From Synechococcus sp. 1G10 (lineage in GTDB: Bacteria > Cyanobacteriota > Cyanobacteriia > PCC-6307 > Cyanobiaceae): 38,319 nt of DNA. The stretch is taken from positions 1 through 38,319 of the forward strand of contig NZ_NQKW01000024.1 in NCBI RefSeq assembly GCF_002252625.1. Direction: 5' to 3'. Below the pieces are notes generated by a model that saw nothing but the letters and a program-made list of their open reading frames with translations, searched no databases and was not told the origin of the DNA. Below, piece by piece: positions 25,770-29,233 of the stretch. The translations under genes and the position numbers were made by a program. Within the stretch, counting starts at the first letter, position 1; each line of letters starts with the position of its first letter.

Positions 25770-27896
25770 CTAACCCGCCACAAGCCAGCGCCCCCCCGCC
25801 CCCAGGGCCAGGGCCGCGGCGCTTCCCCACCACAGAGCCGTCCGGCTGTTCAGCAGCAGGCGGCGCAGCAGCACCAGCGACCCGCCGACCCCCAGCAGCA
25901 GCACCAGGCTCTGGCAGAAGGCAATCACGTGAGGATCGGCGCTCCAGCTGGGCAGCGGCTGCTGGAAGCTGACCGGCAGCAACCGGCCCGCTTCCGCCAT
26001 CCCCACCGGCAGGTGCCGCGCCAGCAACAGCGCCCAGAGCAGGGGCAGCAGGCCATAGAGCCCGAGGCGAAGACGCCGGGCGGCCCGCTCCGGCGGTGTC
26101 AACCAGCTCCCGATCCGAAGCGCAAGCAGGGCCAGGGCAGAAGGCAGCGCCAGAGCCAGGACGGCAAAGGCCAGGCGCGGCAGAAAGGGGCCCGCCTGCA
26201 GGCTGTCGGGGGCCAGGGGCAGCCACCCCAGCAGCCGATCCCAGAACTTCAGGCAGACGCCGCCGGCGAGCACCAGGATCAGACCAGCCTCACCGTCGGG
26301 TGGAGCCATCTCCCGCTGCAGATCGGCCGCGGGTGGGCGCAGGCTCAGCTGCACGGAGCGATGCGGGCAGGCCTGGGCGCAGGTGAGACAGAGCACGCAG
26401 TTGCGGTTGTCGTCGAGGTGAGCCGGGTGGGTGCCGAGCGGGCAGCCGGCCGTGGCCAGTCCCTCCCCATCGGCGGGACCGCCCTTGAAGCAGGCATAGG
26501 TGCTGCAGCTGCCGCTGCAGGTGCCCACCTGGGCGCGCAGCTCCAGAACTGAGAGCTTGGCGAACAGACCGTTCATCCCCCCCACCGGGCAGAGATAGCG
26601 ACACCAGAACCGCTTTTCGAAGCGCACCGAACCGATCACAGCCCCGGCGGTGATCAGCAGTAGCAGACAACTGCTCAGCCGGGCGCTGTTCTCCAGATCT
26701 GCCAGCTCCTCCCAGAGCAGGATCGCGGCAAAGCCGGCTGCCAGGGCAGGCGCGGCCCAGCGGTCGGTTTCCCCCCTCGGCCAGCGGGATGGCTGCCAGC
26801 CCAGGGCAGCCGCCAGCCGCTGGCTGATCTCACCCCAGACCATGAACGGGCAGAAGGAGCACCAGATGCGGCCCACCAGGGGGTAGCCCAGCAGGATCAG
26901 GGGCCACCACCAGGCCCAGAACAGCGTCAGTGCCCCGCTGTGGGCGCGGTCCTGGGGTCCCAGCCACAGCCACAGGTTCACCAGCACGAACACCCAGCTC
27001 ACCAGGCCGAAGAGCAGGGCGTTCCACAGCTTCGGTGAGCGCATCCAGGGGCGCAGGGCCGGCTTCCAGCGCCAGAGGTCGAAGCGGGGGCGACTCTGGC
27101 GGGAGGGTCGCCAGAACACGTCCTCCGGCAGCTCCGGGGGCGGATCTCCCTCAGCCGGAACCGGCAGTTGACGCAGGGCCCGCTCCACCAGGTCTTCAAG
27201 CTCGCGCACGTTGCCGGGGAAGTCGTGGGTCTGCAGGCGGCGGACCAGCTCCGCCCCCGCCACCGGCGCCGTCGGCCAGCCCAGGGCGCGACTCTTGAGG
27301 CGCAGGTCGTAGCGCAGCCAATCGCCGAGGTCCTGGCGCCGCACCCGCAGCGGCGGCACCCGGATCAGCGTGCAGACCCGCTCGAAGCCGGGCACCACCG
27401 CCTCGGTGGTGAAGAAGACCCTGCCGGTGAAGTGGTGGGGAGCTTCGGCGGGATCCGGCGCCTGCCAATGGCCACTCTTAGCCAGCTCCAGCAGGGCGGG
27501 CAGCAGCTGGGGATCGACCCGATCGAGCTTGTCGATCAACAGGGCGCCCACCTCGGGGTTGTCCAGGAAGGAGCCCTCCCCGCCACGGCCGGCAGCCCCG
27601 AAGAGCTCGGCACCATCTCCACGCAGCAGCGCCCCGTCGAGGCGCACCATCAGCTGCCGCCGGGAGGAGGAGCCGAAGTGAATCAGGGCGGCGATGTTGT
27701 CCTTCTCCAGCCCAGGTTCACCGGTGATCAGCAGCGGGCCACCGAGCGGGTCCTGGGAGGCCGTGCGCACCGCCTCACGCAGGGAGCGGGCATAGCGGCT
27801 GTCTCCAACGATGCCGCGACGGGCGCGGCCCACCAGATGGGGAGCCAGACGGAGCAGGCTGTCGGCCACTGGCGCTTCGTCCCCATGAGGCTCCAT
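25770..27896 (-). CDS. Fusion of degenerate sigma-54-activator-like AAA+ domain to NapH/CcoG-like iron-sulfur membrane domain
   Basis: The 708-residue protein starts with an AAA+ domain of the bacterial enhancer-binding type (31-240): GPLLITGEPGLEKDN, VGALLIDKLDRVDP, FFTTEAV, LRVRRQDL and FPGNVRELEDLVERAL. Walker A lacks the usual GTGK[E/S], Walker B has DK instead of DE, and the sigma-54-contacting GAFTGA loop is missing. From ~288 come several membrane helices with CSFCP (346-350), CRYLCPVGG (432-440), further cysteines at 460, 464 and 469, and a ferredoxin-like CVLCLTCAQACP (500-511), as in NapH/CcoG/NosR. More membrane segments follow. Cyanobacteria lack sigma-54, so the first domain probably senses or regulates rather than activating transcription. 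It is divergent from the GST gene across 32 bases. Confidence 0.87.
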   Translation of the reverse strand: MEPHGDEAPVADSLLRLAPHLVGRARRGIVGDSRYARSLREAVRTASQDPLGGPLLITGEPGLEKDNIAALIHFGSSSRRQLMVRLDGALLRGDGAELFGAAGRGGEGSFLDNPEVGALLIDKLDRVDPQLLPALLELAKSGHWQAPDPAEAPHHFTGRVFFTTEAVVPGFERVCTLIRVPPLRVRRQDLGDWLRYDLRLKSRALGWPTAPVAGAELVRRLQTHDFPGNVRELEDLVERALRQLPVPAEGDPPPELPEDVFWRPSRQSRPRFDLWRWKPALRPWMRSPKLWNALLFGLVSWVFVLVNLWLWLGPQDRAHSGALTLFWAWWWPLILLGYPLVGRIWCSFCPFMVWGEISQRLAAALGWQPSRWPRGETDRWAAPALAAGFAAILLWEELADLENSARLSSCLLLLITAGAVIGSVRFEKRFWCRYLCPVGGMNGLFAKLSVLELRAQVGTCSGSCSTYACFKGGPADGEGLATAGCPLGTHPAHLDDNRNCVLCLTCAQACPHRSVQLSLRPPAADLQREMAPPDGEAGLILVLAGGVCLKFWDRLLGWLPLAPDSLQAGPFLPRLAFAVLALALPSALALLALRIGSWLTPPERAARRLRLGLYGLLPLLWALLLARHLPVGMAEAGRLLPVSFQQPLPSWSADPHVIAFCQSLVLLLGVGGSLVLLRRLLLNSRTALWWGSAAALALGAGGRWLVAG

Positions 27897-27928: not shown

Positions 27929-28513
27929 ATGACCCTCACCCTCTACGGCGGTCTCCGCTCCAGGGCGTCCATGCCCCGCTGGTATCTGGCCGAGAAGGGG
28001 ATTCCCTACAACTGGCGCCTGCTCGACATGCAGGCCGGAGAGCACCGGCAGGAGGCCTTCCTCGCCATCAATCCCTTCGGCAAAGTGCCGGCCCTGGAGG
28101 ACACCGGCGCCCAGGACCCGCTCGGAAAACCCCTGCGCCTGTTCGAGAGCGGCGCGATCCTGCTCTACCTCGCCGATCGCTATGGCAAGGAATTCACCAG
28201 CCCAGAGCAGCGGGCCCTGGCCGAGCAGTGGGTGCTGTTCGCCAATGCCACCCTGGCCACTGCCCTGTTCGTGGAATCGGCCCGGGAGCGGGAGTTTCCG
28301 CGGCTGATGGCCGCTCTCGACCAACGCCTGGCCGATGGCCAGGCGTTGGTCGGTGCGGCCTGGGGTGTGGCCGACTGCGCCGTGAATGCCCACCTGGCCT
28401 ACCTGCCCGTCTTTTTCCCCCAGCTCGATCTGAGCCCCTACCCGGCGGTTCAGGCCACGATCGAGGCCACCCGCGCCAGGCCCGCCTATCAGGCAGCGAT
28501 GGCCACGGACTGA
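27929..28513 (+). CDS. Glutathione S-transferase
   Basis: The 194-residue protein has the thioredoxin-like N-terminal domain: LTLYGGLRSRASMPRWYLAEKGIPYNW, NPFGKVPALED (the cis-Pro of the glutathione site) and LFESGAILLYLADRYG (the E-S pair binding glutathione). A helical C-terminal domain (~90-190) follows. A Ser in the active-site turn (SRAS) suggests a Ser-type GST. It probably conjugates glutathione or reduces peroxides in the cytosol. A perfect 16-bp inverted repeat lies inside the coding sequence (28318-28352). It starts 32 bases from the divergent iron-sulfur fusion gene; PdeM follows after 12 bases. Confidence 0.93.
   Translation: MTLTLYGGLRSRASMPRWYLAEKGIPYNWRLLDMQAGEHRQEAFLAINPFGKVPALEDTGAQDPLGKPLRLFESGAILLYLADRYGKEFTSPEQRALAEQWVLFANATLATALFVESAREREFPRLMAALDQRLADGQALVGAAWGVADCAVNAHLAYLPVFFPQLDLSPYPAVQATIEATRARPAYQAAMATD
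28318..28352. repeat. Perfect 16-bp inverted repeat inside the GST gene
   Basis: CGACCAACGCCTGGCC (28318-28333), loop GAT, and its exact complement (28337-28352). It codes for DQRLADGQALVG in the GST reading frame. It is too long for chance in a stretch under coding constraint, and can form a very stable RNA hairpin. Confidence 0.85.
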
Positions 28514-28525
28514 GCGGGCGGCGTG

Positions 28526-29233
28526 ATGGTGGACCACCCCCTCGATCGGGCACCCTTCCACTGGCGGGGGCAGCGGCTGGAGCTGCTGGCGGCAAAGGCG
28601 CTCTGGGATCCCGAGCAAAAGCTGCTGCTGGTGGCCGATCTGCACCTGGGCAAGGCCGAGACCTTCCAGAGCCAGGGCATCGCCCTGCCCAGCGACGGGG
28701 ATGCGGGCACCCTCAACGCCCTGCTGACCCTGGCCCACGTCTGGCGCCCGCAGGAAGTGGTGGTGCTGGGCGACCTGATCCACAGCCGGCTGGGCCTCAC
28801 CGCCGAGCTGCGCCAGAAACTCAGGGCCCTGCCCCAGCTGCTGGGCTGCCGACTGCGGCTGATCGGCGGCAACCACGAACGGGGCAGCTGGATCGAGGGG
28901 CTGCCCCAGGAACCGGCCATGGCCCGGGGAAGCCTCTGGCTGAGCCATGGTCCCGAAGATCAGCCCCCACCCGGGTCAACCGATCGTCTGCACGTCTGCG
29001 GCCACCTGCACCCTGTGGCGCTGATCGGTGACCGCAGCGATCGCCTGCGCCTGCCCTGCTTCAGCTACGACGAAGGGGTACGGCGCCTGGTGCTGCCCTC
29101 CTTCGGGCAGCTCACCGGCGGACATCCCTGCGATCGGCGCGAGCAGATCTGGCTGGTGGCTGACGGGGCGATCGTGCCCTGGCAGGCGCTCAGCCCTCAG
29201 CCGCCAGGGCGCGCACCACATCGCCGCGGGTGA
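28526..29233 (+). CDS. pdeM: Ligase-associated DNA damage response endonuclease PdeM
   Basis: The protein has about 235 residues and is a calcineurin-like metallophosphoesterase of the PdeM family. Its motifs are LLVADLHLGKAETFQSQG (DxH), VVVLGDLIHSRLG (GDxxH), RLIGGNHERG (GNHE) and, near the end, LSHG and CGHLHPVALIG (GH.H). These bind two metal ions for phosphodiester cleavage. In other bacteria pdeM lies directly with the ligase and Lhr-like helicase; here it is about 11 kb from the ligase but in the same neighbourhood. ATG 28526 is preceded by GTG 28523. The 3' end overlaps the CBS-domain gene on the other strand by 44 bases. Confidence 0.9.
   Translation: MVDHPLDRAPFHWRGQRLELLAAKALWDPEQKLLLVADLHLGKAETFQSQGIALPSDGDAGTLNALLTLAHVWRPQEVVVLGDLIHSRLGLTAELRQKLRALPQLLGCRLRLIGGNHERGSWIEGLPQEPAMARGSLWLSHGPEDQPPPGSTDRLHVCGHLHPVALIGDRSDRLRLPCFSYDEGVRRLVLPSFGQLTGGHPCDRREQIWLVADGAIVPWQALSPQPPGRAPHRRG

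Follow-up and report, generated by a model that had tools for sequence, protein, structure and literature searches.

A membrane iron–sulfur protein with a degenerate enhancer-activator-type AAA+ domain is widespread in the Cyanobacteriia

The window analysed here, a 38,319-nucleotide stretch of contig NZ_NQKW01000024.1 from Synechococcus sp. 1G10, contains a long frame in which an AAA+ domain of the enhancer-binding-protein (EBP) type precedes a NapH-like membrane iron–sulfur module. The locus raises the question of what a sigma-54-activator-type domain does on a membrane protein in an organism group without sigma-54. An earlier note, made from the sequence alone, had suggested that the AAA+ part no longer drives transcription and may instead hold a nucleotide or scaffold a redox protein. 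The EBP-type AAA+ fold and the NapH-like module are each known; new are their combination, the conserved dead active site and a second, sulfur-associated family. No description of such a fusion was found in the literature searched, with most subscription journals outside its coverage.

Domain structure and distribution of the fusion protein

That both modules are joined in one frame, as the earlier note had described, is apparent from the open reading frame, from Pfam and from an AlphaFold model of the 708-residue protein (mean pLDDT 77.4). Near-invariant columns and row counts refer to an alignment of 66 proteins of what we call family A, comprising the window protein and 65 homologues hand-picked from the BLAST list (34 Cyanobiaceae and 32 other rows). 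Duplicate locus identifiers of one gene, further close Cyanobiaceae rows, the family B row L107 and split or partial genes (L023, L106, L142, L094, L101, L103, L108, L090 and L077) were left out. The features are the following.

25770–27896, minus strand: fusion ORF, 708 aa, family A short form without a cNMP domain; open frame
27174–27809, minus strand: EBP-type AAA+ domain plus lid, residues 30–241; Pfam, NCBIfam and model match to the FleQ central domain
27699–27722, minus strand: altered P-loop GEPGLEKD, residues 59–66; Lys in 66/66 rows, third Gly in 8/66
27522–27542, minus strand: non-catalytic Walker B LLIDKLD, residues 119–125; Asp-Glu in 0/66 rows
27198–27218, minus strand: PGNVREL, sensor II region, residues 227–233; Arg231 in 49/66 rows
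26307–27056, minus strand: NapH-like membrane and Fe-S core, residues 281–530; Fer4_5 above cut-off, TIGR02163 below
26850–26861, minus strand: Cys346 and Cys349, CX2CP motif (346–350); 66/66 rows
26589–26603, minus strand: Cys432 and Cys436, CX3CP motif (432–437); 66/66 rows
26442–26519, minus strand: Cys460, Cys464, Cys469 and Cys485, possible 4Fe-4S site; 66, 66, 65 and 65 of 66 rows
26367–26399, minus strand: Cys500, Cys503, Cys506 and Cys510, CX2CX2CX3CP, ferredoxin-type 4Fe-4S motif; 66/66 rows
25779–26306, minus strand: C-terminal membrane helices, residues 531–706; helices in the predicted model, 19/176 columns near-invariant

The domain search proposed in the earlier note returned AAA_lid_14 (28.7 bits, cut-off 27) and Fer4_5 (29 bits, cut-off 22), and left Fer4, Fer4_10 and, just short of its cut-off, Sigma54_activat (18.5 against 20.2 bits) below threshold. 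The nearest curated family of the membrane part is NapH/MauN (TIGR02163), whose cut-off of 213.05 bits is far above the 41.4 bits obtained, and of the two CX3CP motifs of NapH only the second is present, the first reading CX2CP; both are invariant. Where at least two cysteine clusters had been noticed before, four groups were found. The C-terminal iron–sulfur motifs consist of one of ferredoxin type (500–511), for which Pfam Fer4 stays under its cut-off, and one unusual four-cysteine group (460–486), located in a stretch (456–492) that is modelled with a pLDDT below 50. Ten cysteines occur in all 66 rows, and Cys469 and Cys485 in 65, the remaining row having an X at these positions. In families A and B alike, no feature is more constrained than the cysteines, and 98 of the 250 columns of the core (residues 281–530) are near-invariant. 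The presumed inner loops contain on average 4.5, 4.2 and 5.0 lysines plus arginines, and the outer loops 1.2 and 0.1. Because these charges fit an N terminus on the inside, the AAA+ domain and all four cysteine groups are predicted to face the cytosol.

According to PMC5928378, NapH and NosR have a common membrane module with CX3CP motifs, and quinol oxidation has been proposed for the membrane segments of NapH. Like NapH/MauN, and also NosR and RdhC, the window protein has membrane helices with Cys-Pro motifs followed by iron–sulfur cysteine motifs (PMC5928378). It differs from them by the initial CX2CP, by extra C-terminal helices and by the N-terminal AAA+ domain, to which most of its relatives add a cNMP domain. 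Stand-alone proteins annotated ‘4Fe-4S binding protein’ from Deinococcus ficus (L152, 452 aa) and Natronorubrum (L153, 443 aa) are about 30% identical to P0001 residues 313–558 and 313–543, respectively. Both contain Fer4_5 above its cut-off, like the window protein, but no AAA+ or cNMP domain was found in them.

An assembly error or a chance fusion can be ruled out, as 262 of 388 Cyanobacteriia genomes have a match at E≤1e-5; restricted to genomes with a completeness of 90% or more, the count is 225 of 334. Most listed matches span the fusion in a single frame, single-contig genomes included, and mostly run from about residue 17 to 680–708; no internal stop occurs in the full-length matches among those listed. 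The remaining 126 of the 388 genomes gave no match, and the 20 of these that are listed include every listed Cyanobiaceae genome below 2 Mb, so the gene is dispensable in such small genomes. In the phylum sample 92 of 244 genomes match. In the 31 of these 92 that lie outside the Cyanobacteriia the match covers the membrane part only or, in one genome, AAA+ parts only. None of the 180 matching records of a plasmid collection covers 80% of the query; among the best 40 of these 180, two cyanobacterial plasmid records cover 75%. About two in three sampled cyanobacterial species have the protein, which is easily labelled a nitrogen or sigma-54 regulator despite the absence of sigma-54. One plasmid relative is indeed annotated ‘nitrogen assimilation regulatory protein’.

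Several single loci deviate from this picture. Outside the Cyanobacteriia, a 660-aa frame (G450:C1:127608-129044, minus strand) matches the AAA+ part twice, in tandem. A family A gene is split into two ORFs in overlapping frames in genome G221 and in a metagenome-assembled genome (L142 8880–10860; L023, L106), by frameshift or sequencing error. Synechococcus sp. CS-1325 has fragments of a second, broken-looking copy (L108 5782–6825) besides the full copy L038. In the metagenome-assembled genome titled ‘Bifidobacterium breve’ (L072) there is a cyanobacterial copy, 72% identical and flanked by the same genes; the title is probably wrong.

Lost and retained parts of the AAA+ domain

Fold and lid of the AAA+ domain are of the EBP type. 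The model of the window protein matches the central domain of FleQ (6jdi) in a structure comparison with Z 22.2 and an rmsd of 2.2 over 228 residues. By sequence, its closest solved proteins are NifA (best, E 5.6e-10), PspF and NtrX, and VpsR is among the matches of both the sequence and the structure comparisons. Five family A relatives score 44.6–83.2 bits with Sigma54_activat. In the viral structure comparison the top matches are general AAA+ proteins.

What distinguishes the window protein from NifA, PspF, NtrX and FleQ is the loss of catalytic and contact residues. The GAFTGA loop, reported missing in the earlier note, is absent throughout family A, with no GAFTGA-like string in the 66 aligned homologues. 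LLIDKLD was rightly recognized as an altered Walker B motif: the Asp-Glu pair occurs in none of the 66 rows, which read Asn-Asn (28), Asp-Gln (10), Asp-Lys (8) or a mixture of other residues. No homologue with an intact Walker B motif or GAFTGA was found among the rows examined. The stretch of PspF that we take to be the site of the arginine finger faces a gap in its alignment with the window protein. The PGNVREL helix is present as described (residues 227–233), and its sensor II Arg231 is kept in 33 of 34 Cyanobiaceae rows versus 16 of 32 rows elsewhere.

The description of Walker A as degenerate was only half right, because the P-loop region was held while the hydrolysis machinery went. GEPGLEKD departs from GxxGxGK[ET]; the family A P-loop reads GEPGLxKD, with leucine at position 63 in 66/66 rows and the third glycine lost in 58, in 57 of them to glutamate. 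By contrast, Lys65 is retained in all 66. Near-invariant columns make up 12 of 22 in residues 59–80 (the P-loop and its helix) and none of 67 in residues 81–147, where some marine rows (e.g. L131, L140, L092, L093 and L141) have deletions; over the whole domain they number 40 of 218 across distant clades. Judged from this alignment, the degeneracy is class-wide and ancient, and selection has preserved the P-loop region but not the machinery of hydrolysis. The domain offers a clear natural example of an AAA+ pseudo-enzyme that an entire class has retained.

The genomic context agrees with the premise of the earlier note that sigma-54 is lacking. PF04552 gives no match at E≤0.1 in this genome, in a search that returned a match in nine of 14 control genomes, four of them over the cut-off. 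Across the phylum, eight of 244 genomes match at E≤0.001 and two of 244 exceed the cut-off. One of the latter cases, in the cyanobacterial genome G334, comes from a 202-aa ORF (L174 6915–7523, minus strand) with an isolated RpoN-type DNA-binding domain (62 bits), in which other parts of sigma-54 were not found. PMC3162934 reports sigma-54 and its activators to be absent from 29 cyanobacteria, and PMC12316311 names Gloeocapsa PCC 7428 and Leptolyngbya O-77 as exceptions that have sigma-54. Eight other frames of this genome (452–943 aa) match PF00158, several over the cut-off and some with higher scores than the window copy; judged by their length, they look like other AAA+ proteins. Neither the window protein nor any of five relatives gave a Pfam match to a DNA-binding domain at E≤1. 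Since no rpoN, GAFTGA, Walker B Asp-Glu pair or DNA-binding domain was found, a role as sigma-54 activator is very unlikely. With that role set aside, the earlier suggestion that the AAA+ part may hold a nucleotide or scaffold a redox protein is the best remaining reading.

TyrR, DhaR, HupR and VpsR are soluble DNA-binding regulators. As EBPs with a defective GAFTGA motif (PMC3162934), they resemble the window protein in having an EBP-type AAA+ domain without the sigma-54 loop; the window protein is instead fused to a membrane iron–sulfur module.

Relatives, additional domains and gene neighbourhoods

Outside the Cyanobiaceae, the family A protein is mostly about 840 aa long and its usual order is an N-terminal CRP-fold cNMP domain, the AAA+ domain and the NapH-like membrane iron–sulfur module. 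The cNMP_binding model exceeds its cut-off in four of five family A relatives scanned (the fifth, L145, is without the domain) and in both family B proteins scanned; in the window protein Pfam found no such domain. The full-length Mojavia protein (L100) was modelled with a pLDDT of 78.6, and in this model a long helix (residues 122–156) lies between the cNMP and AAA+ domains. Binding of cAMP seems doubtful because the phosphate-binding cassette, of which we take a Glu and an Arg to be the mark, appears by eye to be without these residues in the sequence stretches viewed.

The domain is absent from the 34 Cyanobiaceae rows, from L122 and from L145, which occupy three separate places in a tree of 89 rows. 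This tree was built by a quick method with SH-aLRT as the sole support measure, leaves 21 of its 86 inner branches open and is drawn with a midpoint root that serves display alone. Rows around L122 and L145 do have it, and tblastn with seven N-termini found only linker-helix matches in these two, so that two losses are clear; against 11 Cyanobiaceae sequences the best E value was 0.4. For the clade of the window protein, the presence of the domain in family B makes a third loss the simplest explanation. This depends on the position of the root: with the root between that clade and all other rows, the tree alone would also allow a gain. As to a stand-alone cNMP gene that might replace the missing domain, this genome gave weak matches only (best E 1e-4, 26% identity, a 497-aa frame).

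A divergent GST gene, whose ORF starts at 27929, 32 bases upstream of the fusion ORF, had been considered to fit a redox-stress link. Its position is as described, but the link did not hold up. Of 79 loci, eight were dropped for missing upstream DNA or a missing 5′ end; among the 71 judged, GST adjoins in 45, PdeM without GST in 13 and neither in 13. L100, L102 and L107, the three loci from outside the Cyanobiaceae, are among those with neither. In the window, the gene adjoining GST is the following.

28523–29233, plus strand: PdeM, ligase-associated DNA damage response endonuclease; TIGR04123, 180.7 bits, over cut-off

The PdeM-CBS-PgsA stretch itself is kept in many Cyanobiaceae loci. The GST neighbour is clade-limited local synteny and no evidence of a common function. 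A conserved operon for family A was likewise rejected: in 48 loci, with crude longest-ORF calling that is weak in GC-rich genomes, no neighbour cluster occurred in more than seven. An upstream gene common to four family A loci encodes a glycosyltransferase in both cases scanned.

Plasmid and genome searches uncovered a second family, B, of paralogous cNMP-AAA+-NapH proteins about 36% identical to the window protein. Hand counts at an identity of at least 55%, which are lower bounds, place it in at least 37 of 291 Cyanobacteriia genomes, at least nine of which show no stronger family A match. Its P-loop is intact (GKT), with G62, G64, K65 and T66 in all 21 aligned rows. Walker B Glu and sensor II Arg occur in 0/21 rows each, and all 12 cysteines in 21/21. 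The loci considered are listed here.

L150 8416–11109, L151 8392–11106 and L154–L171: family B loci

In 13 of 20 family B loci, cysK starts on the same strand within 4 kb downstream of the family B start, versus none of the 40 family A loci L110–L149. Two further A-like copies are L172 and L173, of which L173 alone has a cysK gene, 35% identical and at a distance of 6.9 kb. Family B loci also hold psbA, petC and NPD (5/20 each) and rhodanese (4/20), and genes for thioredoxin-like, DsrE, MerR and ArsP-permease proteins were identified in L150 or L151. These surroundings are likely to be a sulfur/photosystem cassette that is partly on plasmids, and they point to photosynthesis under sulfide. In Synechococcus PCC 7002, H2Sn raises psbA, petC, cysK2 and rhod according to PMC12466478; these genes may differ from the copies in the family B cassette.

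A possible gate on electron flow and its alternatives

Taken together, the sequence points to a membrane redox protein instead of a regulator, and its probable task is to sense or gate the flow of electrons, not to switch on genes. Our tentative proposal, which we regard as quite possible, is that the window gene encodes the short form of a membrane redox protein in which an AAA+ module incapable of hydrolysis gates a quinone-linked iron–sulfur path. The quinone link is suggested because NapH and NosR have a common module and NapH is a proposed quinol oxidizer (PMC5928378). By electron transfer, the NapH-like part would connect the quinone pool with an iron–sulfur or thiol partner in the cytosol. 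The AAA+ domain, a former enhancer-activator module, may have been kept as a non-hydrolysing platform for a nucleotide or a partner, and could gate the electron path according to energy or redox state. In most species a detachable CRP-fold sensor would be part of the protein, and family B, with its intact P-loop and sulfur/photosystem neighbours, may be the form for sulfide or persulfide stress. In a bolder version, which we consider rather unlikely, cyanobacteria, nearly all of them lacking sigma-54, made an EBP AAA+ domain into a gate that no longer hydrolyses but responds to nucleotide or energy charge and controls a quinone-linked iron–sulfur protein, with two ancient families, widespread A (altered P-loop) and sulfur-associated B (canonical P-loop). 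Several findings speak against the main proposal: the glutamate that replaces the third P-loop glycine in most family A rows may block nucleotide binding, the NapH/MauN score is far under its cut-off, the first motif is CX2CP, residues 456–492 are poorly modelled and family A has no conserved neighbour. If gating is true, the protein represents a control point, so far unstudied, at which energy or redox state acts on electron transport in the membrane. The bolder version would amount to a new way of controlling photosynthetic or respiratory electron flow.

CcoG and NosR are maturation-type factors, and AAA+ domains often remodel or hold clients. By analogy, the protein might be a reductase or assembly factor that handles metals or cofactors and whose dead AAA+ domain serves a client complex as a chaperone-like platform. 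We consider this unlikely, even though the membrane module is of the same class, stand-alone relatives adjoin metal transporter and P-type ATPase genes on a haloarchaeal plasmid, and some family B loci have an ArsP-type permease close by: next to family A, no gene for metal handling or assembly is conserved, and the AAA+ domain has lost the hydrolysis residues needed by a remodelling motor.

Less likely again is a sensor of sulfur or persulfide whose thiols or clusters read reactive sulfur and whose AAA+ domain relays this state to a partner. The frequent cysK, psbA, petC and rhodanese genes near family B, together with the H2Sn response of PCC 7002 genes described in PMC12466478, would suit such a function, but these neighbours are limited to family B and cysK is missing from the 40 family A loci.

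It is improbable that the protein is a transcription factor anchored in the membrane and acting, like TyrR, DhaR and HupR, through a sigma-70-type polymerase. The EBP homology of the AAA+ domain and the existence of sigma-70-dependent EBPs with a defective GAFTGA motif (PMC3162934) favour such a role, but Pfam finds no DNA-binding domain in the window protein and five relatives, and the membrane module follows the AAA+ domain directly. We find it equally improbable that the membrane part alone works, with the AAA+ half as a remnant in decay: the variable residues 81–147 and the deletions in marine rows would fit decay, but near-invariant AAA+ columns persist over distant clades and the listed full-length matches are free of internal stops.
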